A stretch of 64,000 bases of DNA from Hamadaea flava (lineage in GTDB: Bacteria > Actinomycetota > Actinomycetes > Mycobacteriales > Micromonosporaceae): contig NZ_JAMZDZ010000001.1 of assembly GCF_024172085.1 (NCBI RefSeq), positions 1,426,001-1,490,000 of the forward strand, in the 5' to 3' direction. Each line of letters opens with the position of its first letter. Positions within the stretch are counted from its first letter, which is position 1. The notes under the pieces were generated by a model. The model was not told the DNA's origin. It did no database searches and saw only the letters and a program-made list of their open reading frames with translations. The position numbers and the translations under genes were made by a program. Of the stretch, positions 24,563 to 50,139 are shown in pieces.

Positions 24563-25918
24563 GTCAACAGATCCAAGCTGACAACATGTCTGATCGCCGT
24601 GGCGGCGGTGGCCGCCGCCATGGTGATCACGTCGGCGGCTGCCGCCGGTCCGGGCGCGCCCGCAACCGTGCCGGTCGCCGCCGACCGCAGCATGGTCGAG
24701 CAACTCGCCCGCACCCTGGGCGTCAGTCCCGACCAGGCGCTGGCCCGGCTCGGTCGCCAGGCGGCGTTCGCGCGGGCCGAGGAGCGCCTGCGCCTCGGCC
24801 TCGGCGACCGGTTCGGCGGCGCGTACCTCAACGAGGACGCCTCGGTGCTGACCGTCGGCGTGACGAGCGCCGCCGACAGCGCTCGCGTCCGGGCAGACGG
24901 GGCCGTCCCCGTCGTGGTCGACCGCAGCGAAGCCCGGCTGCTCACCTACGCCGGGCGGCTTACCGGCCGCGCGGCGTCGGCGCCCAACCAGATTCCCGGC
25001 TGGTACGCCGACGTGCGTACCAACCGTGTCGTCGTGCTCTACCGTGACGGCGGCCTCACCGCGGCCCGTGCCTGGGCGGCGGCCAGCGGCGTACCGGCGG
25101 ACTCGGTGCGCTTCGAGTCCAGTGTGGAGCAGCCTCGGCCGCTGATCGACGTCATCGGCGGCAACGCGTACTACATCGGCGCGGGCACCCGATGCTCGGT
25201 CGGGTTCGCGGTGACCGGGGGCTTCGTGTCGGCCGGGCACTGCGGCACGACGGGCGCCACCACGACGCAGCCCAGTGGCACGTTCGCCGGATCGAGCTTC
25301 CCCGGCAACGACTACTCGTGGGTGCGTACGGCGGCGGGCAACACGTCGCGGCCGCAGGTCAACCGGTACCCGGGCACGGTCTCGGTGGCCGGTTCGCAGG
25401 CCGCCGGGGTCGGCGCGACGGTCTGCCGGTCGGGTTCGACGACCGGCTGGCACTGCGGCACCATCAACGCCCTCAACGCCTCCGTGACCTACTCCCAGGG
25501 GACGGTCACGGGGCTGATCCGCACCAACGTCTGCGCCGAGCCCGGCGACTCCGGCGGCTCCCTCATCGCCGGTGACCAGGCGCAGGGCGTGACCTCCGGT
25601 GGTTCGGGCGACTGCACCTCCGGCGGCACGACCTACTTCCAGCCGGTCAACGAGATCCTCCAGACCTACGGCCTCACGTTGACCGTCACCGGCACCACCC
25701 CGCCGACGAGTTCGCCGACCACCGGTCCGACCGGCGGCCCGACGACTCCGCCGCAGGGCTGCGGCGGCCTGCCCGGCTGGAGTTCCACGACGGGATACGC
25801 CCCCGGCGACGACGTGTCCTACAACGGCCGTCGCTGGGAGTCGACCTGGTGGTCCACCGGAGCCGAACCCGGCGCGCCCGGCTCCTGGGCCGCCTGGGCC
25901 GACCGCGGCGCCTGCTAG
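24560..25918 (+). CDS. Secreted streptogrisin-like S1 protease with CBM5/12 module
   Basis: A 452-residue preproprotein. In order: a signal peptide (MVNRSKLTTCLIAVAAVAAA), an alpha-lytic-type prodomain (about 40-190), and a chymotrypsin-fold catalytic domain with triad His (VSAGHCG), Asp (GNDYSWV) and Ser (EPGDSGGS). A Pro/Thr linker and a C-terminal CBM5/12 chitin-binding module (WSSTTGYAPGDDVSYNG, ending AAWADRGAC) follow. The prodomain acts as folding chaperone and is removed. The layout is that of streptogrisin C-type enzymes. It is followed by its own terminator, and the next two genes also encode secreted enzymes with the same kind of binding module. Confidence 0.93.
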   Translation: MVNRSKLTTCLIAVAAVAAAMVITSAAAAGPGAPATVPVAADRSMVEQLARTLGVSPDQALARLGRQAAFARAEERLRLGLGDRFGGAYLNEDASVLTVGVTSAADSARVRADGAVPVVVDRSEARLLTYAGRLTGRAASAPNQIPGWYADVRTNRVVVLYRDGGLTAARAWAAASGVPADSVRFESSVEQPRPLIDVIGGNAYYIGAGTRCSVGFAVTGGFVSAGHCGTTGATTTQPSGTFAGSSFPGNDYSWVRTAAGNTSRPQVNRYPGTVSVAGSQAAGVGATVCRSGSTTGWHCGTINALNASVTYSQGTVTGLIRTNVCAEPGDSGGSLIAGDQAQGVTSGGSGDCTSGGTTYFQPVNEILQTYGLTLTVTGTTPPTSSPTTGPTGGPTTPPQGCGGLPGWSSTTGYAPGDDVSYNGRRWESTWWSTGAEPGAPGSWAAWADRGAC

Positions 25919-25941
25919 AGACCTCACGGTTTCCTCCCCCC

Positions 25942-25977
25942 TGCCGGCCTGGGCGTCCACCAGCGCCCAGGCCGGCA
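25942..25977 (+). terminator. Terminator hairpin after S1 protease gene
   Basis: TGCCGGCCTGGGCG (25942-25955) pairs perfectly over 14 bases with CGCCCAGGCCGGCA (25964-25977), loop of 8. There is no U-tract, as is usual in actinomycetes. Confidence 0.85.
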
Positions 25978-26006
25978 TCCCCCACCCCCAAAAGGAGAAC
26001 AACCCC

Positions 26007-28379
26007 GTGAAGCCCATCCCACTTCGGATCACCCTCGCGGCCACCGCCGCGGTGGCGGGTCTGGCCCTGGTCATGCCAGGCGTCTCGCTCGCCAGCGCCC
26101 GGCCGCAGGCGCAGCCGGCGGCCCAGACGGCGTCGACGGCTCAGTCGGCCGCGCTCGCCGCGACGGCTGCCGACCGGGTCGCCGACGGCGGCCTCGACGC
26201 GCTGGCCAAGGGTCCGAACGAGTCCTTCGTACGCCGGGACGTCGTCGCCGGATCCGGCGGCCTGCAGTATGTCTCCTACGAACGCAGCTTCCGCGGCCTG
26301 CCGGTGCTCGGCGGCGACGCCGTCGTCGTGACCGACAAGGCCGGCACCGTGCGGGACACGGCTTCCGCGCTCGGCCGGGGCGTACGCCTCGCGTCGGTCA
26401 CGCCGAAGGTCTCGGCGAGCCGGGCGACCGCCGTCGCCCGCAAGCAGCTCAGCAAGATCGAGCAGGCCACCCCGGCGCGGCTGGTCGTGTTCGCCACCCC
26501 GAGCGGCGATCGGCTCGCCTACGAGGTCGTGCTGGAGGGCGTACGCGCGAACGCGCCGAGCCGCCTGCACGTCGTCGTGGACGCCGCCGACGCCCAGGTG
26601 ATCGACCTTCGGGACGACGTCCGGGAGGGCTCCGGCAACGGCTACTACAACGGCCAGGTGACCCTGACGACCAGTGGTTCCGGCAGCTCGTACTCGATGA
26701 CCGACAACACCCGACCGGGCCTGCAGTGCGGCGGCCAGACCGGCGGCGCGTACACCGGCACCGACGACTCGTGGGGCAACGGGACCGGCACCAGCCTGGA
26801 GACGGCCTGCGTCGACGCCCTGTACGCCGTCCAGCGCGAATGGGACATGCTCGGCGCGTGGCTCGGCCGCAGCGGCATCAACGGCAGCGGCGGCGGCTTC
26901 CCCGCCCGCGTCGGCCTGAACGAGGTCAACGCGTACTGGAACGGCAGCTACACCAACTTCGGCCACAACCAGTCCAACACCGGTCAGGCCACCTCGATCG
27001 ACGTCGTGGCGCACGAGTTCGGCCACGCGATCTTCCAGACGACCCCGGGCGGGGCCGGTTCCGGCAACGAGAACGGCGGCCTCAACGAGTCCACGGGGGA
27101 CATCTTTGGCGCGCTGACCGAGGCGTACGCCAACAACCCGAACGACCCGCCGGATTTCCTCGTCGGCGAAGAGGTCAACCTCACCGGCGCGGGCCCGATC
27201 CGCAACATGTACAACCCGTCCGCGCTCAGCGACCCGAACTGCTACTCGTCGGCCATCCCCAACACCGAGGTGCACTCGGCGGCCGGGCCGAACAACCACT
27301 GGTTCTACCTGACCGCGATCGGCTCCGCCGGGGGCGGCGGCAACCCGTCGAGCCCCACCTGCAACGGCGGGTCCGTCACTGGCATCGGCATCCAGAAGGC
27401 CGGCCAGATCTACATGGGGGCGCTCAACCTGAAGACGTCCGGTTGGCGGTACGTCAACGTGCGTACGGCGACGCTGCGCGCGGCAGTCAACCTGTTCGGG
27501 GCGTCGTCGGCCGAGTGCCGCACGGTCAAGGCGGCGTGGGACGCCGTCAGCGTGCCCGCGCAGAGCGGTGAGGCCCAGTGCTCCACGGCCACCAACGACT
27601 TCTCGGTGTCGGTCAGCCCGGCCAGTGGCACCGTCCAGCGTGGAGCCACCGGGAGCACGACCGTCTCGACCGCGACGACCTCGGGCAGCGCCCAGTCGGT
27701 CGCGCTCTCGGCCAGCGGCCTGCCGTCCGGGGTGACCGCGACGTTCTCCCCGGCGACGGTGACCTCCGGCGGTTCCAGCACGCTGACACTGGCCGCGAGC
27801 GCGTCCGCCGCGCTCGGGTCGGCGACGGTCACGGTGACCGGAACCGGCTCGAGCGCGACCCACACCGCCTCGTACACCGTGACGGTCACGAGCCAGCCGG
27901 GCGGGAACGACTTCTCGGTCTCGCTCTCGCCCTCGTCCGCCACGGTCGCGCCGGGCAACTCGGCCACCGCGTCGGTCGCGACGGCGACCACGTCCGGGAG
28001 CGCCCAGTCGGTGGCCCTCTCCGTCACTGGTACGCCCACCGGTGTCACCGCGTCGGTGAGCCCTGGCACGGTGACCTCGGGCGGCAGCGCGACGCTGTCG
28101 ATCGCGGTCGCGGCCGGCGCGACGGCGGGCACCTACTCCCTCACCGTCACCGGTGTGGGCACGTCGGCGTCGCACAGTGCGGTGTTCACGCTGACGATCA
28201 GCGGCGGCGGTGGCGGCGGCTGTGGCGGCCTGCCGGAGTGGACCGCCACCACGCCGTACGCGCCGGACGACCTCGTGTCGTACAACGGCCACCGCTGGAA
28301 GTCGACCTGGTGGTCGACGGGTGCCCAGCCCGGCGCGCCCGGTTCCTGGGCGGTCTGGTCCGACCAGGGCGCCTGCTGA
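26007..28379 (+). CDS. Secreted M4 (thermolysin-family) metalloprotease with CBM5/12 module
   Basis: A 790-residue preproprotein with a GTG start and strong AAAAGGAG. Domains in order: signal peptide, FTP/PepSY propeptide (about 50-205), and M4 catalytic domain with zinc motif VVAHEFGHAIF and third ligand in GLNESTGDIFG. Two beta-sandwich repeats follow, each starting NDFSVS (about 531 and 632), and a C-terminal CBM5/12 module (WTATTPYAPDDLVSYNG, ending SDQGAC). The two sandwiches share almost identical SGSAQSVALS segments, so one arose by duplication. Neutral protease acting on protein associated with chitin or similar polymer is the inference from the binding module. Confidence 0.93.
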   Translation: MKPIPLRITLAATAAVAGLALVMPGVSLASARPQAQPAAQTASTAQSAALAATAADRVADGGLDALAKGPNESFVRRDVVAGSGGLQYVSYERSFRGLPVLGGDAVVVTDKAGTVRDTASALGRGVRLASVTPKVSASRATAVARKQLSKIEQATPARLVVFATPSGDRLAYEVVLEGVRANAPSRLHVVVDAADAQVIDLRDDVREGSGNGYYNGQVTLTTSGSGSSYSMTDNTRPGLQCGGQTGGAYTGTDDSWGNGTGTSLETACVDALYAVQREWDMLGAWLGRSGINGSGGGFPARVGLNEVNAYWNGSYTNFGHNQSNTGQATSIDVVAHEFGHAIFQTTPGGAGSGNENGGLNESTGDIFGALTEAYANNPNDPPDFLVGEEVNLTGAGPIRNMYNPSALSDPNCYSSAIPNTEVHSAAGPNNHWFYLTAIGSAGGGGNPSSPTCNGGSVTGIGIQKAGQIYMGALNLKTSGWRYVNVRTATLRAAVNLFGASSAECRTVKAAWDAVSVPAQSGEAQCSTATNDFSVSVSPASGTVQRGATGSTTVSTATTSGSAQSVALSASGLPSGVTATFSPATVTSGGSSTLTLAASASAALGSATVTVTGTGSSATHTASYTVTVTSQPGGNDFSVSLSPSSATVAPGNSATASVATATTSGSAQSVALSVTGTPTGVTASVSPGTVTSGGSATLSIAVAAGATAGTYSLTVTGVGTSASHSAVFTLTISGGGGGGCGGLPEWTATTPYAPDDLVSYNGHRWKSTWWSTGAQPGAPGSWAVWSDQGAC

Positions 28380-28385
28380 ACCGCC

Positions 28386-28418
28386 CCGGGGACGGTTGCC
28401 GCCGGCGGCCGTCCCCGG
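28386..28418 (+). terminator. Terminator hairpin after M4 protease gene
   Basis: CCGGGGACGG (28386-28395) pairs with CCGTCCCCGG (28409-28418) over 10 bases. It separates the protease gene from the dioxygenase gene. Confidence 0.75.
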
Positions 28419-28451
28419 TCCCCCCTCCCAACCACCGCGAACGGAGAAGTG

Positions 28452-29288
28452 ATGAGCGACGAAGAAAGCCGCACCGAGGAGCCCCGGCCCACCGGAGTGT
28501 CCCGGAAGACCCTGCTGCGCGCGGCGATGATCGCGCCCGCCGTCCCGCTGCTGGCCGGCGTGCCCGCCCTCGCGCGTACGCCGTCCGGGCAGCCGCTGGC
28601 GGCCACGCCCGAGTCGTGTGACGACGACGATCTCACCCCGCCGCAGATCGAAGGCCCCTACTTCAAGCCGGGATCGCCGCTGCGGACCTCGATCGCCGAC
28701 GGTCCGGGCACCGCGCTGACCCTGACCGGCTACGTCGTCGGGCTGGCCTGCCAGCCCATCGCCGGGGCGCTGCTGGACTTCTGGCAGGCCGACAACGGCG
28801 GCAACTACGACAACGTGGGCAACCGGTTCCGGGGTCACCAGCTCACCGACACGCAGGGCAAGTTCACCCTGACCAGCATCGTGCCGGGGCTGTACCCGGG
28901 GCGTACCCGGCACATCCACGTGAAGGTGCAGGCGCCGGGCCGCCCGATCCTGACCACCCAGCTCTACTTCCCGAACGAGCCCCGCAACTCGACCGACACC
29001 CTGTACGACCCGGCGCTGCTGATGAACGTGCAGATCGTCGGATCGGGCCGGCAGGCCACGTTCGACTTCGTCCTGAACATCCAGGGCACGCCACCGTCGC
29101 CGTCGCCCACTCCCACGAAGACCACCAGTCCCACTCCGCCGACCGGCGGCACCTGGGCGCCCTATGTGGCGTACGCCCTCGGCGCGCAGGTCACCTACGG
29201 CGGGCTGAGCTACGCCTGCCAGATCGCGCACACCTCGCTGCCGGGCTGGGAGCCGCCGAACACGCCCGCCTTGTGGCGACGCGTGTAG
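28452..29288 (+). CDS. Secreted intradiol dioxygenase-like protein with CBM5/12 module
   Basis: A 278-residue exported protein. The N-terminus (GVSRKTLLRAAMIAPAVPLLAGV) resembles a Tat-type signal with a single-Arg-Lys variant. The intradiol ring-cleavage fold follows with candidate iron ligands Tyr (EGPYFKP), Tyr (GGNYDN or GLYPGRT) and His (RTRHIHVKV). After a Pro/Thr linker comes a carbohydrate-binding module of CBM5/12 type (GTWAPYVAYALGAQVTYGG, ending PALWRRV). A similar fusion is known from a biomass-degrading Streptomyces (SACTE_2871), where it acts on lignin-derived catechols. The ATG at 28452 is preferred over the preceding GTG because of spacing to GGAG. Confidence 0.88.
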   Translation: MSDEESRTEEPRPTGVSRKTLLRAAMIAPAVPLLAGVPALARTPSGQPLAATPESCDDDDLTPPQIEGPYFKPGSPLRTSIADGPGTALTLTGYVVGLACQPIAGALLDFWQADNGGNYDNVGNRFRGHQLTDTQGKFTLTSIVPGLYPGRTRHIHVKVQAPGRPILTTQLYFPNEPRNSTDTLYDPALLMNVQIVGSGRQATFDFVLNIQGTPPSPSPTPTKTTSPTPPTGGTWAPYVAYALGAQVTYGGLSYACQIAHTSLPGWEPPNTPALWRRV

Positions 29289-30252: not shown

Positions 30253-30279
30253 ATCACGGGACCAGTACGCTCTGTGGGG

Positions 30280-31266
30280 ATGATCGAGCCCGGGATCGAC
30301 CCCTCCTCCGCCACCACCGCCGCCGAGTTCGTGGAGCTGCTGCGGCGCGTCCGGATCAGCTCCGAGCTGAGCTACCGGCAGATCGCGCAGCGCGCCCGCG
30401 CACACGGCGTCGCCCTGCCGATCAGCACTCTCGCGACCGCGCTGAACCGGGATACGATGCCCCGGCCGGAGGTCGTCACGGCGATGCTGCTGGCCTGCGG
30501 CTGCAGCCGGGAAGAGCTGGCCCGGTGGCTGACCGTGCGCCGCCGGATCGTCCTCGGCCCGCTCTCCACTGCGGACAGACCGGAGCCGGACCGCGCCGAA
30601 CCGAACCCACCATCGCCCGATGAAGTGAAGCCCGACGAGGCGGAGTCCCGGGAGACGCTCGCCACGCCGGTCGCGATGGACCTCCAGAACCGATGGCGGC
30701 GGCTGCGGGCTCGCGTACCCCTATGGGCGATCTTGGCGGTCGCCATCGCGGTCAGCGCGGGCGGCGCCTTGTGGTCCGCGGACCGCACGCACCATGCCGC
30801 GACCTCGCCGCCGGTCGGCTCGCCCCCGGCGACCGGCTCGCCCTCGCCGATCATCGCGGCGGAGTCCATCCGGGTACGCCCGATGACCGGCGCCGGATGC
30901 CTGAGCGAGCGCAGCGGAACCACCGGATACCTGTTCATCGAGCCGTGCGAGCAGGCGTTCCCGGCGCTGTCGACGGAGCCCGCCGACGGCGGCGCGTTCC
31001 GGATCCGCACCGATCACCCCGAGTTCGGGCCGGGGTGCATGGGCGTCGACCCGGTCGCGACCGACGACCGGCCGTCCGACGGCTACTGCCCCGACGTCAA
31101 GCATCAGCTCTTCACGCTGATCGCGGCGGGCGGCGGGATGCTGGTCCGCAATGTCGAACTCGGACAGTGCCTCGTGGTACGCCCGGAGGCCGGATCGCGC
31201 GCGGTGATCTTCGCGGACTGCTCGGGTGACGACCCCGCGCAGCTGTTCGTCATCGACCGAGTCTGA
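30280..31266 (+). CDS. Membrane-anchored XRE-type regulator with extracytoplasmic domain
   Basis: A 328-residue protein. The N-terminal 80 residues form a helix-turn-helix (SELSYRQIAQRARAHGVALPISTLATALN) of the type seen in actinobacterial XRE proteins. An acidic Pro-rich linker, one membrane helix (PLWAILAVAIAVSAGGALW) and an outer domain of about 140 residues follow. The outer domain has paired cysteines (GCLSERSG, IEPCEQ, GCMGVDP, DGYCPD, GQCLVV, FADCSG) and a weak ricin-B-like pattern. This suggests a one-component transmembrane sensor. It is 13 bases upstream of nothing obvious; the split NRPS genes begin 164 bases downstream. Confidence 0.8.
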   Translation: MIEPGIDPSSATTAAEFVELLRRVRISSELSYRQIAQRARAHGVALPISTLATALNRDTMPRPEVVTAMLLACGCSREELARWLTVRRRIVLGPLSTADRPEPDRAEPNPPSPDEVKPDEAESRETLATPVAMDLQNRWRRLRARVPLWAILAVAIAVSAGGALWSADRTHHAATSPPVGSPPATGSPSPIIAAESIRVRPMTGAGCLSERSGTTGYLFIEPCEQAFPALSTEPADGGAFRIRTDHPEFGPGCMGVDPVATDDRPSDGYCPDVKHQLFTLIAAGGGMLVRNVELGQCLVVRPEAGSRAVIFADCSGDDPAQLFVIDRV

Positions 31267-31290: not shown

Positions 31291-31330
31291 GCGAACGTTC
31301 GGGTCGAACGCCTTCGAACGATGCCGAACG
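31291..31330 (+). promoter_or_regulatory. Phased CGAACG heptamer repeats ahead of the NRPS operon
   Basis: Four direct heptamers occur: GCGAACG (31291-31297), TCGAACG (31304-31310), TCGAACG (31314-31320) and CCGAACG (31324-31330). The last three are exactly 10 bases apart, that is on one face of the helix. They end 9 bases before a TTGACC -35 candidate, the position expected for an activator. SARP-type activators use direct heptamers, though usually at an 11-bp period. Confidence 0.65.
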
Positions 31331-31339
31331 CGTTCAGCG

Positions 31340-31369
31340 TTGACCTCGATCAACTGCCGCGGCTAACAA
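31340..31369 (+). promoter_or_regulatory. Candidate promoter of the split NRPS operon
   Basis: TTGACC (31340-31345), 18 bases, then TAACAA (31364-31369). The -35 matches the consensus well and the -10 partially. It lies directly after the heptamer array and 61 bases before the first start codon. Confidence 0.45.
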
Positions 31370-31430
31370 TCGACCCCGGGACCGCCGGGTTCCGCCGGCC
31401 GGCGGTCCCCACATACGGGGGGTGCACACG

Positions 31431-32450
31431 ATGACGATTCTGCTGACCGGGGGCAGCGGGGCTGTGGGCGCGGCCGTGCTGGGGAAGGTGGCGGCCGGAG
31501 GGCCGAAGGAGCGAGTCGTCGCGCTGGTGCACCGCGGTGATGTCGCCGCCGCGACTGTCGCAGGCGACATCACCGCACCCCGGCTGGGCTTGGCCGCCGA
31601 CGTGTACGCCCGGCTCGCCGGACAGATCACCACTGTCGTCCACTGTGCTGGGGCGACCGAGTTCACCGCCGCGGACGAGGTGATCCGGGCGCTGAACGTG
31701 GACGGCACCCGGCATGTGCTGGAGTTCGCGGCCGACGCCGGGGCGCGGGTCGTCTTCGCCTCGACCGCGTTCGTGGTCCGGCGGGAGAGCGCCGCGCCGC
31801 TGACGCAGTCCTATCTGGAGACCAAGCTGGCGGCCGAGGATCTGGTCCGCTCGGCGGGGCTGCCCGCCTCGATCGCCCGGATCGGCGTCGTCATGGGCGA
31901 CGCCCGGACCGGGCGGATGAGCCGCTTCCAGGGTCTGCACTCCACCGTGGACGCCGTCCTGCGCAACCTGTTGCCGGTGCTCCCGTTCGCCCGGGACGCC
32001 GTGATCGACGCGCTCCCCCGCGACATCGTGGCCGACGAACTCCTCCGGCTCTGCGCCACCGACGACGCGACCGGTGACGGCGTAGCGGGCGCGGCTCACG
32101 ATGCCGGGGTCGGCGAGCATTGGATCACCGCTGGACGGGACGCGCTCACCATCGGGCGCATGGTGGAGCTGATCGCCGAGCGGGCGCCCCACCTGGGGCG
32201 GACCGTCCATCCGCCGCGCTTTGTACGCCCGGCACTCGTCGACCGGGTGGTACGCCCGGCGTACATCGATCCGCTGCCCGCGGCCCAACGCCGCAAGTTC
32301 GCCAATCTCATGGCTCTGGCCTCGCTGTTCGACGACGTGCCCGCGTTTCCGAGCACGCTGACGGACCCACCCACCACTCAGCAGCTCGAGGACGCGTTCG
32401 TCGCCACCGTCGACTACCTGGCCGCGAGCAAGGGCCTCGTCGCCGCCTGA
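31431..32450 (+). CDS. Thioester-reductase-like NAD(P)-dependent SDR
   Basis: A 339-residue extended SDR. The dinucleotide motif is TGGSGAVGAAV (about residues 6-16) and the active-site pair is in SYLETK (YxxxK). The order of motifs, with VHCAGATEF and a late RFVRPALVDRVVRPAYIDPL segment, resembles the NAD_binding_4 reductase domains that release NRPS thioesters as aldehydes or alcohols, and some stand-alone epimerases. It is the first gene of the NRPS set. As a free-standing R-like protein it could release the final peptidyl thioester. ATG 31431 is chosen for the GGGGGG box 8 bases upstream. Confidence 0.8.
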   Translation: MTILLTGGSGAVGAAVLGKVAAGGPKERVVALVHRGDVAAATVAGDITAPRLGLAADVYARLAGQITTVVHCAGATEFTAADEVIRALNVDGTRHVLEFAADAGARVVFASTAFVVRRESAAPLTQSYLETKLAAEDLVRSAGLPASIARIGVVMGDARTGRMSRFQGLHSTVDAVLRNLLPVLPFARDAVIDALPRDIVADELLRLCATDDATGDGVAGAAHDAGVGEHWITAGRDALTIGRMVELIAERAPHLGRTVHPPRFVRPALVDRVVRPAYIDPLPAAQRRKFANLMALASLFDDVPAFPSTLTDPPTTQQLEDAFVATVDYLAASKGLVAA

Positions 32451-32506
32451 CCGAGTTCCGCCGCCTGACCGAGTTCCGCCGCCTGACCGAGTTCCGCCGC
32501 CTGATC
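32441..32506. repeat. 18-bp tandem repeat between reductase and C1 genes
   Basis: CGCCGCCTGACCGAGTTC occurs three times in perfect tandem (32441-32494) plus a partial fourth copy. The first copy contains the stop codon of the reductase gene, so its last codons are part of the repeat. No stem is formed. It looks like recent slippage duplication and widens the gap to the next gene to 97 bases. Confidence 0.9.
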
Positions 32507-32547
32507 GCCTTGGCAAAGCGTCGCCTGACCAACCTGGGGAGTTGCTC

Positions 32548-33921
32548 ATGACCGCCGAAGCACCGTTGTCCTATGCCCAGCAACTGCTCGCCGCGTTCGC
32601 CGTGCACGACGGCGGCAGCGTCTTCGGCGGCGGATTCGTCAACTGGTGCGCCCACGAGCTGACCGGCCCGGTCGAGCCGGAGCTGCTCCAGGAGGCGCTG
32701 GACGAACTGGTCGTGCGGCACGGCGGGCTGCGTACGGTGGTGGTCCGGGACGAGGGTTTCCCGTTCCAGCGTGTCGTCGCGCCCGCGCCGGTTCCGTTAC
32801 GCGTCCACGACGCCGCTGTGTCCATACCGGACGAACGGGTCCGCGCGACCGCCCGGATCACGGCCGAGGCCCTGGCCCGGCCGTTGCCACCCGGCCAGGT
32901 TCCGTTGATCGCCGCCGACCTCGTCCGGTTCGGCCCGGACGAGTCGGCCCTGATCCTGCTGATCCACCGCACCGTCGCCGACGGCTGGACGATGCAGGTC
33001 GCCATCCGCGACGTCGTCACCGCGTACGAACGTCGTCGCCGGGGTTCGGCCGACGCCGTCGAACCACCGCCCCAGTACGCCGATCACGCGCTGACCGAAT
33101 CCTCCCCGGAACGGGAGAAGCGGATTCAGGAAGCGCTGCCCTACTGGCGGGAGCAGCTGTCCGGCGTACGCCGGGTGGGCATCCCTGCCGACCGGCCCCG
33201 CCCGGACGCTGCCGCAGACACCGGTCGAGAGAAGGCGCTGCACACCTTCGAACTGCCCGACGCGGTCGTCGCCGGGCTGCGCGCCCGGGCCCGGACGCTA
33301 CGGACCACCGAGTTCACCCTGCTGCTGACCGCGTACGCCGTCGCCCTGGCCGGGCACGCGGGCCAGCCGCGGATCGCCCTGCCGGTGCTGTCGGCCGGAC
33401 GCGGTGCCGGGGACTGGGACGGCATCGGCTTCTACCTCAACGGCCACGTGCTCCGGCTGACCCTGTCCGGTGCGATGACGGCGGCGGAGGCGGCGGCGCA
33501 CGTGCACCAGGTCAACGCCGAGGCGCTTCAGCATGACGTGCCGCTCATCCGGGTCCTGGAGGAACTGCCGGAGCTGGCCGAGGCGGCGTTCGACGCCCGG
33601 GACATCGTGCCCGCGCCGATGCAGTTGTGCCGGCCGATCCCGCGCGCCGACGATCCCGGTGCGGCCGTCCACTATCGACGGCTGACGCTGCCGCCCGACG
33701 TCGTCCGCGAGACGCCGGTCATGCCGGTGGACTTCCTCTGGGTGATGGAGCCGTACGACTCCTTCGTCGTCCGGGTGACCTACGACCCCGCGATGTTCGA
33801 GGCGGCGTCGGTGGACCGGATCGCCCGCCGGTTCCGTGCGACCGCCGACAGGCTCGTGACCTCGCCGAACACGCCGCTGGCAAGTCTGCTGGCGGCCACA
33901 CCCGAGGAGGTAGGCGGATGA
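32548..33921 (+). CDS. Free-standing NRPS condensation-domain protein (C1)
   Basis: A 457-residue protein spanning exactly one condensation domain. Visible core motifs are LSYAQQLL (C1), RHGGLRTVV (C2) and the active-site region LLIHRTVADGW (C3, His140-Arg141), followed by a C5-like IGFYLNGHVLRL. The canonical HHxxxDG reads HRTVADG, so the second, catalytic His is replaced by Arg141. It may be a non-catalytic or repurposed C domain, for example an ester- or P450-recruiting (X-like) type. The stop overlaps the PCP start (ATGA). Confidence 0.88.
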   Translation: MTAEAPLSYAQQLLAAFAVHDGGSVFGGGFVNWCAHELTGPVEPELLQEALDELVVRHGGLRTVVVRDEGFPFQRVVAPAPVPLRVHDAAVSIPDERVRATARITAEALARPLPPGQVPLIAADLVRFGPDESALILLIHRTVADGWTMQVAIRDVVTAYERRRRGSADAVEPPPQYADHALTESSPEREKRIQEALPYWREQLSGVRRVGIPADRPRPDAAADTGREKALHTFELPDAVVAGLRARARTLRTTEFTLLLTAYAVALAGHAGQPRIALPVLSAGRGAGDWDGIGFYLNGHVLRLTLSGAMTAAEAAAHVHQVNAEALQHDVPLIRVLEELPELAEAAFDARDIVPAPMQLCRPIPRADDPGAAVHYRRLTLPPDVVRETPVMPVDFLWVMEPYDSFVVRVTYDPAMFEAASVDRIARRFRATADRLVTSPNTPLASLLAATPEEVGG

Positions 33922-34196
33922 ACCGCCAGGCGCTGGAGCTGAGCACCGACTACACCGCGCCGCGGGACGCGGTCGAACAGCAGCTGGCCGAGTTGTGGTC
34001 GGCTCGCCTGGAGGTCGAGCCGATCGGCGTCCACGACGACTTCTTCGAGCTGGGCGGGGACTCCCTGCTCGCCGCCGAGCTGCAACTGGCGATCGACCGG
34101 ATGTTCGGCGTCGAGGTGCCCACGTGGACGTTGTTCCTGAGTCCCACCGTGGCCGAACTCGCCGCCACCATCGTCGCCGAGCTGGCGTCGGCGTGA
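33918..34196 (+). CDS. Free-standing peptidyl carrier protein
   Basis: A 92-residue acyl/peptidyl carrier protein. The phosphopantetheine site is in DDFFELGGDSLLAAEL (Ser49). The sequence is PCP-like rather than ACP-like. It overlaps the C1 stop by four bases and the P450 start by four bases (GTGA). As the only carrier in the cluster it must accept the amino acid from the A protein and present it to the P450 and both C proteins. Confidence 0.93.
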   Translation: MNRQALELSTDYTAPRDAVEQQLAELWSARLEVEPIGVHDDFFELGGDSLLAAELQLAIDRMFGVEVPTWTLFLSPTVAELAATIVAELASA

Positions 34197-35413
34197 CCGG
34201 TCTCGTCGACCTCGCCGATCCGGGCCTGTACGCCACGGGCGAGGCGCACACGGTGTTCCACGCCTTGCGAGACAGCGACCCGGTGCACTGGCAGCCCCCG
34301 GCGGGCGACCGGCCCGGGTTCTGGTCGGTGACCCGGTACGCCGACGTCGACCGGGTGCTCTCGGACTACGAGGCGTTCACCAGTGAGCGCGGTACGCTCC
34401 TCAATCTGCTCGGCCGTCCCGATCCGGCCGCCGGACGGCAGCTCGCCGCGACCGATCCGCCCCGGCACGACCGGATGCGCGCGCCGGTGCAGCAGGCGTT
34501 GAACGCCCGGGCCGTCGACCGCCATATGTCCGCTGTGGACGCCGCGGTGGACGCCGTCCTCGAACCGGTCCGGGCGTCGGCCGGGTCGGTTGTGGACCTG
34601 GTGGAGGTGTTCCGGCTGCTGCCGCTGGCCGCCGTCGGGCCGCTGCTGGGCGTACCGGAGTCGGATCGCGCGCGGCTGGCGGAGCTGGCAGCGATGTGCG
34701 CCGCCGAGGACGATCCCGACGTGCGGCTGCCGGGCGGGGTCGCCGCGACCCTCCAGCGCGGCCATCGGGAGCTGTTCGCGTACTTCGCCGACCTGGTCCG
34801 CCAGCGGCTCCGGCGGCCCGGCGGCGATCTGCTCAGCGTGCTGGCCACGATGCGGTTCGAGGGTGCTCCGCTGCCCGTCGGAGCCGTCATCGCCAACGCG
34901 TACAGCCTGCTCCTCGGCGCGGCGGTGACGCTGCCGTGCGTGCCGGCGGCCGTGCTGGCCCAGGTGGCGAAGACCGGCGCCTTCCGGGTCTGGGCCGAGC
35001 GGCCGGACCTGCTGGACAGCGGGGTCGAGGAGGCGTTGCGGTTCGCCACTCCCGGCATGCATTTCGTCCGGCACGCCCGGCGGCCGGTCCGGCTTGGAAA
35101 CCATTACATCGAGTCCGGCCAGCCCGTCGTCGCATGGCTGACCGCGGCCAACCGCGATCCGGCGGTGTTCGACGACCCGGACGGGTTTCACCCGGACCGG
35201 CGGCCCAATCGGCACCTCGCCTTCGGCAGCGGTCGGCATTACTGCATCGGCTCCCACATCGCCCGCCGGACATTGCGCCTGCTCTTCGGCCGGCTCCTCG
35301 CCGAGGTGGCCGACCTCGACCTGGCAGGTCCCGCGGTCCGGGTCCACTCGGCGTTCCTCGCCGGATTCAAACACGTGCCGGTCGTGGTCCGGCTGCGCGG
35401 AGGTCTCGCATGA
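34193..35413 (+). CDS. Cytochrome P450, probably acting on carrier-bound substrate
   Basis: A 406-residue soluble bacterial P450. ExxR is at Glu280-Arg283 (EEALRFATP), and the heme loop FGSGRHYCIGSHIARR carries Cys351. The I-helix (YSLLLGAAVTLPCV, about 237-250) lacks the usual acid-alcohol pair AGxET, so proton delivery must differ. Translational coupling to a discrete PCP on one side and a C protein on the other suggests that it modifies an aminoacyl- or peptidyl-PCP, as NovI- or Oxy-type enzymes do. No ferredoxin is adjacent. Confidence 0.92.
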   Translation: MTGLVDLADPGLYATGEAHTVFHALRDSDPVHWQPPAGDRPGFWSVTRYADVDRVLSDYEAFTSERGTLLNLLGRPDPAAGRQLAATDPPRHDRMRAPVQQALNARAVDRHMSAVDAAVDAVLEPVRASAGSVVDLVEVFRLLPLAAVGPLLGVPESDRARLAELAAMCAAEDDPDVRLPGGVAATLQRGHRELFAYFADLVRQRLRRPGGDLLSVLATMRFEGAPLPVGAVIANAYSLLLGAAVTLPCVPAAVLAQVAKTGAFRVWAERPDLLDSGVEEALRFATPGMHFVRHARRPVRLGNHYIESGQPVVAWLTAANRDPAVFDDPDGFHPDRRPNRHLAFGSGRHYCIGSHIARRTLRLLFGRLLAEVADLDLAGPAVRVHSAFLAGFKHVPVVVRLRGGLA

Positions 35414-36588
35414 TCCCCCTCACCTACGCCCAGGAGCTGCTCGACCTGCTCGAACGGCACGATCCGGGCCGCACCACCGGCGATCGGTTCGTCGTCGAAC
35501 AGTCCTTCCGAGTGACCGGGACGGTCGAGCAGGAGACGCTGCGGGCGGCACTCGGCGACGTGGTGTTCCGGCACGAGGCGCTGCGCAGCGTCCGGGAGCC
35601 CGGCGGCAGCCGGGTCGAGCCACCGAGACCGGTCACCGTGGACGGTTACGCCGATCCCTTCCCGGCCGGCGAACTGCCCGCGCTGCGGGCTCGGCTGTGC
35701 GACGACCGGCTCGATCTGGCCGCGCACCACAGCGCGGCCGATCCGTGGTCGCTCGCCGTGATCGCGCGCGATCTGGCCACCGCCTATCACGCGCGGCTGC
35801 GGGGCGACCGGCTCTCCCCCAAGGTCATGCAGTACGCCGAGATCGCCGCCGACGACCGCTCGCCGCAATGGCAGCAACGCATCGCAGAGGTGCTGCCGAA
35901 CTGGCGCGCACGGCTGGCCGGGCTCGACGCGGCGGAGCGGCCCGAGTGCGGTCCGGTCGCCGGCCGGTACGCCGAAGTCCCGTTCCGGCTCGGCGACGAT
36001 CTCTGGCAGGCCGTGGTGGGCAGCGCCCGGCGCGCGCGGAGCACACCGTTCACGGTGCTGCTGTCGGCGTACGCGGCGACGCTGTATCCGGCGGGACGGA
36101 CGCCGGAGGCGCTGCTGCCGGTCATCACGCCGGGCCGGATCCCGTCGGAGTGGGACACCGTCGGCTTCCTGCTCAACGTGCTCACGATGCGGGTGTCGAT
36201 CCCGGCCGCCGACGATCCGCCGGAGCTGCTGCGGCGCGTCGACGTGGCGTGCCGTCAGGCGTACGCCGACGACATCCCGCTCGTGCCGGTGTTGGGCGAG
36301 GTTCCGGCGCTGCTGACCGCGCTCACCGGTACGCGAGCCGCCCCGGCCTTCCGGTTCGTCGCCCGGCCGTCGATGACCCCGCCGCCCGTCCAGCCACAAT
36401 GGACAGCTGCGCCGGTCGGGCCGGAGACGTCCCCGTCGGTGGTCCTCGGCTGCCCGCTGCTGTTCACCGTCCATCCGGGCGGCACCGGGATCGTCACGTA
36501 CGACACCGGGGCGTACTCGGCGGACCGGATCGGCGACCTGGTCTCGGCGTACCTGTCGCGGGTGCCGTTGTTCGCCGGAGCCCGCTGA
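35410..36588 (+). CDS. Free-standing NRPS condensation-domain protein (C2)
   Basis: A 392-residue condensation domain, somewhat shorter than the usual 430-450. It starts with LTYAQELLDLL and RHEALRSV. The active site reads HHSAADP (His106-His107, Asp111), so both histidines are intact but the motif Gly is Pro112. A C5-like VGFLLNVLTMRV and a late segment PLLFTVHPGGTGIVTYDTG are also present. The ATG overlaps the P450 stop (ATGA) and the stop overlaps the A-protein start by one base. With C1 defective at the catalytic His, this is the more likely bond-forming enzyme. Confidence 0.88.
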   Translation: MIPLTYAQELLDLLERHDPGRTTGDRFVVEQSFRVTGTVEQETLRAALGDVVFRHEALRSVREPGGSRVEPPRPVTVDGYADPFPAGELPALRARLCDDRLDLAAHHSAADPWSLAVIARDLATAYHARLRGDRLSPKVMQYAEIAADDRSPQWQQRIAEVLPNWRARLAGLDAAERPECGPVAGRYAEVPFRLGDDLWQAVVGSARRARSTPFTVLLSAYAATLYPAGRTPEALLPVITPGRIPSEWDTVGFLLNVLTMRVSIPAADDPPELLRRVDVACRQAYADDIPLVPVLGEVPALLTALTGTRAAPAFRFVARPSMTPPPVQPQWTAAPVGPETSPSVVLGCPLLFTVHPGGTGIVTYDTGAYSADRIGDLVSAYLSRVPLFAGAR

Positions 36589-38024
36589 TGTGGCCCGACC
36601 ATATCCTCAGCCTGGTGGAGCCGCACCTGTTCGGCGACGCTGTGGCGGTCCGCGACCGGGACGGGCAGCTGTCCTATGCCGACCTCGGCGACCTCAGCGC
36701 CCGGGTCGCGGCAGCCGTGATCCGCGCGGGGGTGGCCGAGGGCGAGCCGGTGCTCGTGCACGCGAGCCTGTCACGGTGGGCGATCGCCGGCATGCTGGGG
36801 GTGCTGCGCGCCGGAGCCTGTTACGTGCCGATCGACGCCGCCTTCCCGGCAGACCGCCAACGCCAGTACGCCGAAGCGTCTGGAGCGCAGGTGGTGCTCA
36901 CCGAACCTGGGCTGCCGCGGTTGCGGCCTGAGCTGACGCCCATCGACCTGACCACACTGCCACCCGGCCGGGCGGCCCGGCACGGGCGGCTCGCATACAC
37001 CTGTTACACCAGCGGCTCCACCGGCACACCGAAACCGGTCACCGTGTCGGCGGCGGCGTTGGCGTACTCGACGGCCGCCCGGCTGCGGTACTACCGGGAT
37101 CGGGTGGGCGGATTCCTGCTGTGCTCGTCGATCTCGTTCGACAGCTCGGTCGCCGGGATCTACTGGACGCTGGCCAGCGGCGGGGCCGTCCTCATCCCGA
37201 GCCCACGGCCCGGCGACCTGGTCGCGCTCGGCCGGACGGCCCGGGCGTACCGGCCGACGCATCTACTGCTCGTGCCGTCCCTGTACGCGGTCGCGCTGCG
37301 CGGCGGGCTCGCCGACGACCTGCGGAGTCTGCGTACCGTGGTCGTCGCGGGCGAAGCGTGCCCGCCCAGCCTGGTCGGCGAGCACTTCGCGCGGCTGCCC
37401 GGCACCCGCATGTTCAACGAGTACGGCCCGACCGAATGCACCGTGTGGTGCACCGTCCACGAGTGCACGCCCGAGGACGCCGGGCAGCGCTCGGTGCCGA
37501 TCGGCCACCCCATCCCCGGTACGCGCGTCGCCCTCCTCGACGGCGTACTGCACGTGAGCAGTCCCGGCCTGGCCGAGCCGGACACCGTCACTCGGACCAC
37601 AGTGGACGGCCTTCCGTACTACCGAACCGGCGACCTGGTGACCCAGCGTGCCGACGGGGCGCTGCTGTATCACGGACGCGGCGACGACCAGCTGAAACTC
37701 GGTGGGATGCGGATCGAGCGGGCCGAGATCGAACACGCGCTCGCCGGGTCGCCCGGGATCGCGTACGCCGCCGTGGGCATGGCCGGCGGCCACCTGGTCG
37801 GCTTCCTCGTCACCGCCGAAGACGCCGTCGACCGCCGGGCCGTACGGCACCATCTGCTGGCGGCGCTGCCCGCGGCCGCGCTGCCGGCGCAGTTGATCGA
37901 AGTCGACGAGGTCCCGTCGTTGCCCAACGGCAAAGTCGACCACGGCGAACTGGATCGGCGTGCCGCCGCCGCGCTGGCGGCGCTCACCGGTAGCACGTCG
38001 TTGACCTATCGGGTGGCCGGATAG
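36588..38024 (+). CDS. Free-standing NRPS adenylation protein
   Basis: A 478-residue amino-acid-activating enzyme. Core motifs: A3 CYTSGSTGTPK (about 139-149), A5 NEYGPTECT, A7 YYRTGDL, A8 GRGDDQLKLGGMRIERAEIE and A10 PNGK. By alignment to GrsA the pocket keeps Asp235 (SFDSSVAG), indicating an alpha-amino acid rather than an aryl acid; position 236 is Ser, 239 Ala, 322 Glu, 330 Val and 331 Trp. I do not recognise this code. No MbtH-like gene is nearby. It converges with soxR, the 3' ends overlapping by 19 bases. Confidence 0.93.
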   Translation: MWPDHILSLVEPHLFGDAVAVRDRDGQLSYADLGDLSARVAAAVIRAGVAEGEPVLVHASLSRWAIAGMLGVLRAGACYVPIDAAFPADRQRQYAEASGAQVVLTEPGLPRLRPELTPIDLTTLPPGRAARHGRLAYTCYTSGSTGTPKPVTVSAAALAYSTAARLRYYRDRVGGFLLCSSISFDSSVAGIYWTLASGGAVLIPSPRPGDLVALGRTARAYRPTHLLLVPSLYAVALRGGLADDLRSLRTVVVAGEACPPSLVGEHFARLPGTRMFNEYGPTECTVWCTVHECTPEDAGQRSVPIGHPIPGTRVALLDGVLHVSSPGLAEPDTVTRTTVDGLPYYRTGDLVTQRADGALLYHGRGDDQLKLGGMRIERAEIEHALAGSPGIAYAAVGMAGGHLVGFLVTAEDAVDRRAVRHHLLAALPAAALPAQLIEVDEVPSLPNGKVDHGELDRRAAAALAALTGSTSLTYRVAG

Positions 38025-38533: not shown

Positions 38534-38581
38534 CCAAAGAATCGCGACGTCCATCACTGCGATCAGGGTCGGCGCTTTCGG

Positions 38582-38646
38582 GCGCTGGATAAGGGTTCTC
38601 GGTCGAATCTTGACCCATGATTCGACCCGGATCCCTGATCCAGCGC
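38582..38646. repeat. Family B hairpin repeat, copy 1
   Basis: An outer stem GCGCTGGAT...ATCCAGCGC and an inner stem GGTCGAATC...GATTCGACC with minor mismatches between. It lies 30 bases downstream of the stop of the 38676 gene and upstream of soxR, so a terminator role is possible. Confidence 0.85.
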
Positions 38647-38675
38647 TCAGGTACGGGCGAGATGGGGCGAACCGG

Positions 38676-46135: not shown

Positions 46136-47155
46136 TCACCCGGGTTTCCGGGCCACCACCAGTTCCCAGGCCGACGGCAGCACCTCGACATGATCGAACC
46201 CGGTCTTCTCCAGCAGCTCGGTATAGAACGACACGTCACGGAGCCGGCTGACGCAGCTGTCCACCCCGATCAGGAAGTACGACCAGAAGAACTGCATCGC
46301 CAGCCGGTCGGGCGTCCGGAACTCCTCGCAGATCACCAGTCGGCCGCCCAGCTCCAACGCCGCGTACGCCGATTCGACGAGTCGCCGGGCGACGTCGGCG
46401 GGCCAGTCGTGCAGGACGCGGACGAACGCCATCGTGTCGTACCCGCCGGGCAGCGGCTCGGCGAAGAAGTCCCCCGCGACGAAGCCCAGCCGGGCCGGAT
46501 CGGCACAGCGCGTACGCGTCTGCTCGACGAGCGGGCCGACGGCGGCCAGGTTGTAGACGTCGGCGTGAACGTGGGGCGCGTCGGCGACGACGCTCGCGGC
46601 CAGCGTCCCCGCGCCGCCGCCCACGTCGAGGAACCGGCGGCGGCCGTCCCACAGGCGGTCGGCGTACCGGTGGAATACCTCCAGCACCGGGCCCAGCCCG
46701 AGCGACATGCTGCTCTCGAACGACGCCGTCTGCTCGTCGGTCTGGGGCGGCCAGGCGAAGTCGTCCTCGGTCATGCCGACTTCGCCGCGCAGGCTGTCGG
46801 CCAGCCGCCCATGCAGCACCCGCCACGGATACGTGTCGCGATCCCGTTCGATGGCGTCCGGCCCGAGCGCCGCCACCACCGCGTCCCGCAGCCCCGGCAC
46901 CGCCCGGTACTCGGTGTCGGCTAGGTCGTCGCCGTGATCCTCCCGGCGCAGCATGCCCAGACTCTCCAGACAGTCCAGGAACTTGTACAGCCGCAACGGT
47001 TTGAGCCCGTGCCGCTCGGCGAGGTCGGCCAGGCGTACCGGGCCGGGTTCCAGCTCGTCGAGCAGGCCCAGCTCCAGCGCCGTCTCCAGGACGTCAACCG
47101 CCTTGGCCCCGTTGAAGAGCAGGCTCATCAGCGCTCGGGGGGACATCTCCGTCAT
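46136..47155 (-). CDS. SAM-dependent O-/C-methyltransferase (Methyltransf_2 type)
   Basis: A 339-residue methyltransferase with an N-terminal winged-helix dimerisation domain (KAVDVLETALELGLLDELEPG...LKPLRLYKFLDCLESLGML) and a C-terminal Rossmann domain. The SAM motif is RRFLDVGGGAGTLAASVV, and the catalytic region is MAFVRVLHDWPADVARRLVESAYAAL. This fold methylates small aromatic or antibiotic substrates. It is the last gene of the kynurenine-type operon (ATGA overlap), so a tryptophan-derived aromatic such as a hydroxykynurenine or hydroxyanthranilate is the likely substrate. Confidence 0.9.
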   Translation of the reverse strand: MTEMSPRALMSLLFNGAKAVDVLETALELGLLDELEPGPVRLADLAERHGLKPLRLYKFLDCLESLGMLRREDHGDDLADTEYRAVPGLRDAVVAALGPDAIERDRDTYPWRVLHGRLADSLRGEVGMTEDDFAWPPQTDEQTASFESSMSLGLGPVLEVFHRYADRLWDGRRRFLDVGGGAGTLAASVVADAPHVHADVYNLAAVGPLVEQTRTRCADPARLGFVAGDFFAEPLPGGYDTMAFVRVLHDWPADVARRLVESAYAALELGGRLVICEEFRTPDRLAMQFFWSYFLIGVDSCVSRLRDVSFYTELLEKTGFDHVEVLPSAWELVVARKPG

Positions 47156-48270
47156 CGGTGCCACTCCTGTTCCAAGGCGTCCATGAACTCGTCGATCTCG
47201 TCCAGCGTGTTGTAGACGTGCGGGCCGATCCGCAGGTAGCCGCGCCAGCTGCAGATCAGGTTCCGCTTGGCCAGCCGGTACTTCACCGCCTCGCCGTCCG
47301 GAACGTCCAGGCACACCACGCCGCCGCGCTCGGGCCCGGCCGGGCTGACCACCGGGATCCCGGCCGCCGCGGCCCGTTCCAGTACTCGGCCGGTCGCCGT
47401 CAGCGAATGGGCGCGGATCGCCTCGATGCCCACGCCGGCCAACAGGTCCAGGCCGACCCGCGAGACGAGCGCCGTAAGCGGGAACGGGGTACCGCCCGCG
47501 AAACGCTGCGCGCCGGGCGCCCAGGCGGTCGCGGGCTGGAACGACAACGCGTGTTCGCCCGCCTGCCAGCCGGTCGCGGTGGGCTCCAGCCCGTCCGCCA
47601 GCTCCGGCCGCACGTACAGGAACGCGGTGCCCACGCCGCACATCCACTTGTGCGAGCCACCGAGCACGAAGTCCACTCCCAGGGCGGTCACGTCCAACGG
47701 CATCACGCCCACGCTCTGGAAGGCGTCGACGATCACCAGCGCGCCCACCTCGCGGGCCCGGCGGACCAGACTCGCCAGATCCAGCGTCGCGCCCGACGAG
47801 AAGCTCGCGTGGGGCACGCAGACGATAAGGGTACGCTCATCGATCCGTCGTTCCAGCTCGGCCTGGTCGATCACGGGACCGCCGTCGCCGACGATGTCGA
47901 CCTCGGCCCCGAGTCGTTGCTGCGCCTGCCAGACGAACGGGATCGTGGGGAACTCGCGGTCGGTGATGACCACGCGGTTCCGGTGCGGCCGGAAGGCGAA
48001 GCACGACGCGACCCGGGACAGCAGCGTACTGAGGTTGGCGTCGGTGACGACGCTGCCCGGCGTGGCCCCGATGAACCGCTCCAGAGTGGACACGTACGCG
48101 TCCAGCTCCTCGTGCCAGCCGAGCCAGGCGTCGTCGCGCCAGCTTCGCAGGGTGTCCCAGTAGCGTTCCAGCACCGTCTGCGCCCCGCGCGGGATCGCGC
48201 CCGTCGAGTTGCTGTTGACGTAGACGCAGCTCTCCAGCAGCGGGAACTCCTGGCGCAGCGAATGACTCAC
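47152..48270 (-). CDS. kynU: Kynureninase
   Basis: A 372-residue PLP enzyme of aminotransferase class V. Kynureninase features: CVYVNSNSTGAIPRG at the N-terminus, VTDANLSTLLSRV, and the PLP Lys in GGSHKWMCGVGTAFLYV. It hydrolyses kynurenine or 3-hydroxykynurenine to anthranilate or 3-hydroxyanthranilate plus alanine. The GTG start overlaps the stop of the upstream dioxygenase-like gene (GTGA). The active-site details do not tell which substrate is preferred, and a class V desulfurase-like role cannot be excluded. Confidence 0.85.
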   Translation of the reverse strand: MSHSLRQEFPLLESCVYVNSNSTGAIPRGAQTVLERYWDTLRSWRDDAWLGWHEELDAYVSTLERFIGATPGSVVTDANLSTLLSRVASCFAFRPHRNRVVITDREFPTIPFVWQAQQRLGAEVDIVGDGGPVIDQAELERRIDERTLIVCVPHASFSSGATLDLASLVRRAREVGALVIVDAFQSVGVMPLDVTALGVDFVLGGSHKWMCGVGTAFLYVRPELADGLEPTATGWQAGEHALSFQPATAWAPGAQRFAGGTPFPLTALVSRVGLDLLAGVGIEAIRAHSLTATGRVLERAAAAGIPVVSPAGPERGGVVCLDVPDGEAVKYRLAKRNLICSWRGYLRIGPHVYNTLDEIDEFMDALEQEWHR

Positions 48271-49457: not shown

Positions 49458-50139
49458 CCGCGTGGCCGCCCAGCACCCGCAGCTGCCAGAGTTCGGGGAA
49501 GAAGCGGTAGTCGATCAACTTGGCCAGCCAGTCGGCCGGACTGTTCGGGGTGCCGATCATCCCGTGCCCGCCGATGCGGATCGCGATCGTGTAGTGGCGT
49601 ACGCGCCACAGCGCGACCTGTTCGTCCCACTCGATCATGGCCTCGGCCAGCCGGTACGCCGAATCGGTGGCGACCCCTGGATACAGCGTCGCGGGATCGA
49701 TCTCGCGTTCGCGGAGGTGGGCCTGGAAGGCCAGACCCAATCGGCGGCTCGCCTTCTGCGCGTCGCGCCAGCCTGGCGATTCCGCGCCCGATCCGTTGCC
49801 CAAAGCCGGTTTCATCGCCTCGAAGTCGGCCGGCTTGAGATATCGGAACATGTCGAGCTGATCGGTCACCAGCCGGATGGCCAGCGACGCCCGGCCCAGC
49901 AGCAGCTCCGCGCCGGGCAGATCGTCCTTGCCGACCAGGACGGCCGCCTCGTCGATCTCGGCGACCGCGAGTTTGAGCCAGAGTTCGCTGGACTGGTGCA
50001 CTACTTGGAAGAGCAACTCGTCCCGGTGAACCATGTCGTCGGGGTGCCGTTGCAGGCTGAGCAAGGTGTCGAGCCGCATGTAGCGCGCGTAGTCGGTGTC
50101 GCCTTCGCCGGGCAGTTCAGGTGAGGTGTGCTTCTTCAC
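49450..50139 (-). CDS. kynA: Tryptophan 2,3-dioxygenase
   Basis: A 229-residue heme dioxygenase. The family markers are present: DYARYMRLDTLLSLQ, HRDELLFQVVHQSSELWLKL with the distal His, the proximal-His segment WRVRHYTIAIRIGG, and the end RFFPELWQLR. It converts L-tryptophan to N-formylkynurenine. It is somewhat shorter than usual (about 280). The GTG at 50139 is preferred because GGAAGGA precedes it. It is the first gene of the operon; no formamidase is adjacent. Confidence 0.88.
   Translation of the reverse strand: MKKHTSPELPGEGDTDYARYMRLDTLLSLQRHPDDMVHRDELLFQVVHQSSELWLKLAVAEIDEAAVLVGKDDLPGAELLLGRASLAIRLVTDQLDMFRYLKPADFEAMKPALGNGSGAESPGWRDAQKASRRLGLAFQAHLREREIDPATLYPGVATDSAYRLAEAMIEWDEQVALWRVRHYTIAIRIGGHGMIGTPNSPADWLAKLIDYRFFPELWQLRVLGGHAGA

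Follow-up and report, generated by a model that had tools for sequence, protein, structure and literature searches.

Six separate NRPS-type genes form a compact cluster

We analyzed a 64-kb stretch of Hamadaea flava DNA (hereafter, the window; positions 1426001–1490000 of NZ_JAMZDZ010000001.1, a single contig of 8.86 Mb) that carries a compact cluster of nonribosomal peptide synthetase (NRPS)-type genes. Six separate genes follow one another on the plus strand at 31431–38024. In order, they encode a stand-alone thioester-reductase-like short-chain dehydrogenase/reductase (SDR; 31431..32450, start ATG, 339 aa, PF07993, residues STAF...YxxxK); a free-standing condensation-fold protein (C1; 32548..33921, start ATG, 457 aa, PF00668, motif HRTVADG); a free-standing peptidyl carrier protein (PCP; 33918..34196, 92 aa, PF00550 at 59 bits, DDFFELGGDSL); a cytochrome P450 of the aminoacyl-PCP hydroxylase kind (34193..35413, start GTG, 406 aa, p450 Pfam match, I-helix GAAVT); a free-standing condensation protein (C2; 35410..36588, 392 aa, PF00668, motif HHSAADP); and a stand-alone adenylation protein (A; 36588..38024, 478 aa, PF00501). 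All six passed the Pfam cut-offs (NAD_binding_4, Condensation twice, PP-binding, p450, and AMP-binding), contain no internal stops, and have a third-position GC of 0.89–0.94.

An initial annotation had proposed six consecutive genes for single NRPS-type activities (reductase, C, PCP, P450, C, A), which the Pfam domains and the open reading frames confirm. The span it gave, 31291–38024, begins 140 bases ahead of the SDR ATG used here. The overlaps of 1–4 bases that it described from C1 to A were measured as 4 (C1/PCP), 4 (PCP/P450), 4 (P450/C2), and 1 (C2/A). The reported lack of a thioesterase and of MbtH was also borne out: no PF00975 match occurs within the window, and the single MbtH match in the whole genome lies at 23.6 kb, outside the window and far from the cluster. 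SDR and C1 are separated by a 97-base gap, which contains most of a tandem repeat: 3.6 copies of an 18-bp unit that extend from the last bases of SDR into the gap (32441..32504; Tandem Repeats Finder, 100% matches). A scan for promoters and terminators found none.

The order SDR-C1-PCP-P450-C2-A is kept in three of four genomes of the genus, i.e., the one analyzed here, G002, and G003; in G002, it spans two contig ends, with SDR split across both and A cut by the contig end. The fourth genome (G001) had no A match at E ≤ 1e-70. Across the six genes, the ratio of nonsynonymous to synonymous substitution rates (dN/dS) was 0.13–0.30 (the SDR value coming from G003 only), and the start/stop overlaps are retained in the genus copies. 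The six genes are under purifying selection, and because their order persists in two further genomes of the genus at such dN/dS values, the cluster is not a chance assembly. It is also very improbable that it is a nonfunctional, decaying remnant: the changed catalytic motif of C1 (see below) could be read in that way, but the uninterrupted frames, the low dN/dS, and the conserved gene overlaps argue against it.

The adenylation protein carries a histidine-type code

The A protein matched PF00501 with 197 bits, while the AMP-binding_C match fell just under its cut-off (23.1 vs. 24.5 bits), with the C-terminal NGK motif present. Aligned on PheA numbering, its specificity code reads DSALVAEVWK. 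An identical mapping yields DALLIGGTFK strings, a Val-type code, in unrelated A proteins, which supports the indexing. Among 354 Micromonosporaceae genomes, 26 contained A matches at E ≤ 1e-70, and 23 A proteins were read, the gene caller having given no A protein in the remaining three (G283, G390, and G293); in two of the 23 (G363 and G397), no P450/PCP pair of the present kind was called beside A. All 23 carry DSA(L/M/T)(V/I)AEVW; the final K is readable in 21, the other two (L021 and L074) stopping earlier, and five have exactly DSALIAEVWK. In PMC12283262, this last string stands among the histidine codes, with the beta-hydroxy form acceptable. The window code differs from it by one conservative change, V for I at position 299.

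Given this code family and the published histidine code, L-histidine is the predicted substrate of the A protein. The initial annotation had named no substrate; histidine is now indicated by the code, and a putative beta-hydroxylation on the carrier by the P450 family. At the class level, a search for A relatives at E ≤ 1e-80 returned 1 of 394 genomes, the window itself only. A scan of named genomes with the A alignment gave at least 80 loci, and gene neighborhoods were examined for six of the 80; the best nine matches there were 46–56% identical, and the remainder among the matches listed were at most 43% identical.

The PCP-P450-C-A core recurs in other genomes

Beyond the genus, other Micromonosporaceae and Streptomyces fumanus share the order PCP-P450-C-A: it was found in the three genus copies, in L023, L057, and L058, and in S. 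fumanus (L080), and in L023 and L080 it forms a four-gene cassette without this SDR. Relatives of C2 adjoin the same P450, PCP, and A genes in other loci, and the carrier motif GG[DH]SL is present in all 22 carriers read. Eight Micromonospora loci (L065–L072) show a different arrangement, C-PCP-P450-A with a class V aminotransferase gene after it. Their surroundings comprise MFS transporters, a second C protein, the aminotransferase, and a STAND regulator, although not all parts were called in every locus. A complete SDR-C1 addition was seen in this genus alone; G410 has a partial pair, in which the match to the C1 relative starts at residue 125, and at E ≤ 1e-70 it gave no A match. The cluster in the window thus resembles a histidine cassette of the recurrent type to which an SDR-C1 pair has been joined.

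The P450 belongs to an acid-less aminoacyl-PCP clade

The best match of the P450 in the Protein Data Bank (PDB) was 4l0e (1.4e-67), the P450sky structure; 3mgx was also matched. The protein is of the aminoacyl-PCP clade and has both ExxR and the heme Cys. Compared with GGDET in the I helix of 4l0e, the window protein has lost the acid and kept the Thr. The same acid is absent in all 22 cassette P450s read, 15 of which also lack the Thr (it is kept in 7/22, including the window). PMC10424215 describes P450sky and NikQ as beta-hydroxylases of amino acids tethered to NRPSs, the NikQ substrate being histidine. Hydroxylation by the window P450 is not assured, given the loss of the I-helix acid, and the enzyme might perform desaturation, ring oxidation, or a peroxide-driven oxidation of histidinyl-S-PCP instead.

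A wider search bears on this alternative. It gave 20 further loci, some of them near-duplicates, with 25 P450s above 230 bits; the acid is missing from all 24 that are readable, one more having a gap at that column, while more distant P450s in those loci can retain it (GGNET in L172). Many of these P450s adjoin an A protein of Val type and an apparent thioesterase, judged by eye except in L226, where it is annotated as one; such sets resemble the polyoxypeptin genes proposed for beta-hydroxyleucine in PMC3943440. Set against the 0/22 acids and 7/22 Thr residues of the cassette enzymes, this acid-less wider clade beside sets of a beta-hydroxylation type makes a different oxidation of histidine unlikely. 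Since the acid-less clade extends beyond histidine cassettes, the loss is a trait of the clade and not a mark of histidine; a histidine-specific, substrate-assisted mechanism as its explanation was rejected, as P450s beside Val-type codes are equally acid-less. For the same reason, the P450 by itself is no pointer to histidine. In a plasmid search, four P450 relatives were examined and none was annotated as NikQ; three lie beside Val-type sets and one (L229) has no A gene in view.

Two further loci are consistent with beta-hydroxylation. L061 (M. parastrephiae) and L079 (Kitasatospora aureofaciens) combine an A-PCP-P450 set, with PCP fused to P450 in L061, with a PF00975 thioesterase, a threonine-aldolase-type Beta_elim_lyase, and an IMPDH. 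Retro-aldol cleavage of beta-hydroxyhistidine would yield an imidazole aldehyde, much as pathways of the nikkomycin type do, and because these neighbors fit release and retro-aldol cleavage of that amino acid, they support the proposed hydroxylation. Both loci look like imidazole-nucleoside pathways. L079 also contains an open reading frame (7892–8422) that reads like a candidate phosphoribosyltransferase.

The two condensation-family proteins differ at the catalytic motif

C1 and C2 matched PF00668 with 135 and 66 bits, respectively, and both have SgcC5 (4znm) as nearest solved relative (1.1e-45 and 4.8e-34). C2 retains the HHxxxD motif. In C1, the second His is replaced by Arg in all three genus copies, and relatives vary at this motif (HH, QH, HR, and others). 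Thus, where the initial annotation counted two C proteins, there are indeed two condensation-family proteins, but it is unsafe to assume two working enzymes, as C1 is without the second His.

The arginine raises the question of whether C1 is a noncondensing, free-standing recruiter of the P450 to the loaded PCP, comparable to the X domain of glycopeptide synthetases. P450sky and NikQ are not known to need an X domain, which we count against this idea. In its favor, HRxxxDG is fixed in the three genus copies, L057 and L058 have HRVAVDE in their C2-like protein, X domains carry HRxxxDD (PMC11546977), and C1 is under purifying selection (dN/dS 0.19–0.22). A predicted C1 structure (pLDDT 86.3, 18 sequences) was nevertheless closer to SgcC5, which took ranks 1–2 in the fold search (TM 0.84), the teicoplanin X domain coming only at ranks 24 and 39, and none of the 28 PDB sequence matches of C1 bears an X-domain name. 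Moreover, PMC11546977 describes an active C enzyme that is free-standing and has HQxxxDM. We therefore regard a scaffold of the X type as improbable. C1 as a true X domain is unsupported, the protein having HRxxxDG and its fold placing SgcC5 first and the X domain 24th. Because an HQxxxDM enzyme is active and X domains have HRxxxDD, C1 may be either an altered enzyme or a scaffold.

A stand-alone reductase may release the product

The SDR exceeded the PF07993 cut-off by far (108 vs. 20.1 bits), and its PDB sequence match was MxaA (5.7e-12). In a Foldseek search with its predicted structure (pLDDT 86.3), ranks 1–6 were taken by the MxaA R domain and the S. coelicolor PKS thioreductase (TM 0.66–0.71). 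All nine SDR sequences share the same Ser, Thr, Tyr, and Lys, and the reductase-domain fold comes with the S/T-Y-K residues. The SDR is nearest to the terminal reductase domains of NRPSs and polyketide synthases (PKSs).

Outside the genus, 15 SDR matches were found in 121 genomes; the six best of these 15 (33–40% identical) were examined. A class III aminotransferase adjoins the SDR relative in all six, which fits the proposed role of the SDR because such a neighbor is expected for an aldehyde-making enzyme. In these loci (L219–L224), the stand-alone, reductase-domain-like SDR and its aminotransferase are a possible acyl-to-amine release pair; L219, where this was tested, also encodes a polyketide-cyclase-like protein.

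The SDR could also act on a side chain or on the acceptor and not on a thioester. The cluster would then only make PCP-bound beta-hydroxyhistidine, which C2 would pass to an acceptor from elsewhere, as SgcC5 does in the C-1027 system. Several observations lean this way: SgcC5 is closest to both C proteins by sequence and to C1 by fold, PCP-P450-C-A cassettes without this SDR exist (L023 and L080), the SDR stays under the thioester-reductase cut-off, and epimerase-type enzymes follow closely behind the reductase domains in the fold search. Yet the top six fold matches are all terminal reductase domains, the SDR lies upstream of C1 in each of the three genus copies (with the partial pair in G410), and the window has no thioesterase match that could take its place. 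We consider such a supply role possible, if on balance not the expected one.

A proposed dissociated pathway centered on carrier-bound histidine

Together, these results are best accommodated by a fully dissociated, compact NRPS pathway in which carrier-bound histidine is oxidized by the P450, coupled by C2, and released by the SDR, a reading to which we assign a probability of about 0.58. As predicted from its code, the A protein would activate L-histidine and load it onto the PCP. The P450 would then oxidize the beta-carbon of histidinyl-S-PCP in a NikQ-like manner, as suggested by its family and its gene neighbors in related clusters. C2, which is SgcC5-like, would join the modified histidine with either an acyl donor or an acceptor encoded elsewhere, and C1 might serve as a helper with altered chemistry or as a docking scaffold. 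Finally, judging from fold and family, the SDR would take the place of a thioesterase and reduce the thioester on the PCP, giving an aldehyde or an alcohol. We would expect a small derivative of beta-hydroxyhistidinal or histidinol, probably in N-acylated form. The loading of histidine and its beta-hydroxylation are predicted from the sequence, and we infer coupling and reductive release. The initial annotation had suggested a P450-tailored amino-acid or dipeptide aldehyde or alcohol; a P450-tailored, reductively released amino-acid product is consistent with the SDR being nearest to terminal reductase domains, with the reservation that the C1 motif is altered.

Several points weigh against this pathway. 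The window code is one residue off the published histidine code, the I-helix acid is gone throughout the cassette P450s, the same P450 clade also adjoins A proteins with Val-type codes, and C1 lacks HHxxxD. The SDR misses the curated cut-off of TIGR01746 (85.7 vs. 213.35 bits), its fold match is moderate (TM 0.70) and built on nine sequences, and from rank 7 on, similar scores are reached by sugar epimerase-type enzymes and other reductases. An SDR of this kind is missing from most related cassettes, and neither an acyl-donor gene nor a transporter nor MbtH turned up in the cluster.

A broader proposal goes further than the pathway itself: a recurrent PCP-P450-C-A histidine cassette would be combined with differing release and tailoring sets, and here an altered C-fold protein would present the carrier to an acid-less P450 while a free-standing reductase gave a hitherto unknown class of beta-hydroxyhistidine aldehydes or alcohols. 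In this full form, we hold the proposal to be speculative and rather doubtful.

Genes and elements surrounding the cluster

A 330-aa DNA-binding protein with an HTH_31 Pfam match is encoded directly upstream, on the plus strand (30274..31266). Its gene lies 5' of SDR in all three genus copies (adjoining it on C454 of G002), and the protein is 69.5% identical to the G003 copy, with a dN/dS of 0.41. Its 86 N-terminal residues are 50% identical to a STAND regulator beside the L059 cassette, and it is a possible candidate for a pathway regulator.

Further upstream, at 24668–29288, lie genes for an alpha-lytic protease prodomain protein, an M4 protease, and an intradiol-dioxygenase-like protein, all three of which end in a CBM_5_12 match (slightly below the cut-off in the first two); look-alikes occur upstream in G003. 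Directly downstream of the cluster, at 38570–38652, there is a long, near-perfect palindrome (RNA fold z −4.6). It occurs at ~40 places in its own genome (79 matches over both strands; 40 of 144 candidates scored) and many times in G002 and G003, with none among the G001 matches listed, and is a REP- or MITE-like dispersed element. Eight kilobases downstream, at 46136–50139, a four-gene block encodes an O-methyltransferase, a kynureninase-like protein, and two Trp_dioxygenase-family proteins. This block also adjoins the histidine cassette in L070 (59–71% identical), the only one with a match among 229 locus records, some of them overlapping; its proximity to the cassette is either chance or reflects a linked, tryptophan-derived partner.

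Comparison with known systems

The closest parallel is NikP1/NikQ of nikkomycin, which shares with the window the predicted activation of histidine, a carrier-bound substrate, and a dedicated P450 of the aminoacyl-PCP kind (NikQ being compared by description). NikP1 is said to include an MbtH part, and NikP2 reportedly acts as the releasing thioesterase. The window, by contrast, has A and PCP as separate proteins, with no MbtH in or beside A and no thioesterase, and adds two C proteins and an SDR. P450sky of skyllamycin is related through 4l0e, the best solved relative of the window P450, and differs in its I helix. The type II NRPS of C-1027 (SgcC1, SgcC2, and SgcC5) reportedly has a free-standing A protein and PCP, SgcC5 joining the beta-tyrosine unit to the enediyne core. 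It resembles the window in its free-standing A, PCP, and C proteins, and C1 and C2 are both separate proteins nearest to SgcC5 by sequence (the fold being compared for C1); unlike the window, it lacks a comparable P450 or reductase partner. The stand-alone SDRs beside class III aminotransferases belong to the same family as the window SDR, whereas the window has neither their aminotransferase nor the PKS-like genes seen by eye near some of them. For polyoxypeptin, PMC3943440 proposes PlyC, PlyD, PlyQ, PlyR, and PlyS, i.e., a free-standing A protein, PCPs, a P450, and discrete thioesterases, for hydroxylated amino acids. This set shares its free-standing A, PCP, and P450 with the window; it differs in that PlyR is proposed for Leu, the blocks are released by a thioesterase and then reactivated, and C and SDR proteins are absent.

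The initial annotation recognized no described pathway with the order SDR-C-PCP-P450-C-A, and none is named in the open PMC literature by text search, in which gene order itself is not searchable; the cluster is nonetheless not a one-off, its PCP-P450-C-A core being recurrent. The system is very small and fully separated, with a single protein for each NRPS step, each of which can be tested, and it belongs to a family that pairs A proteins of near-fixed histidine code with a matching P450 clade in which the customary I-helix acid is missing. Should release indeed be reductive, the system would yield beta-hydroxyhistidine aldehydes or alcohols. Every part is of a known kind, and their combination, not named in that literature, is a variant of the nikkomycin NikP1/NikQ kind.

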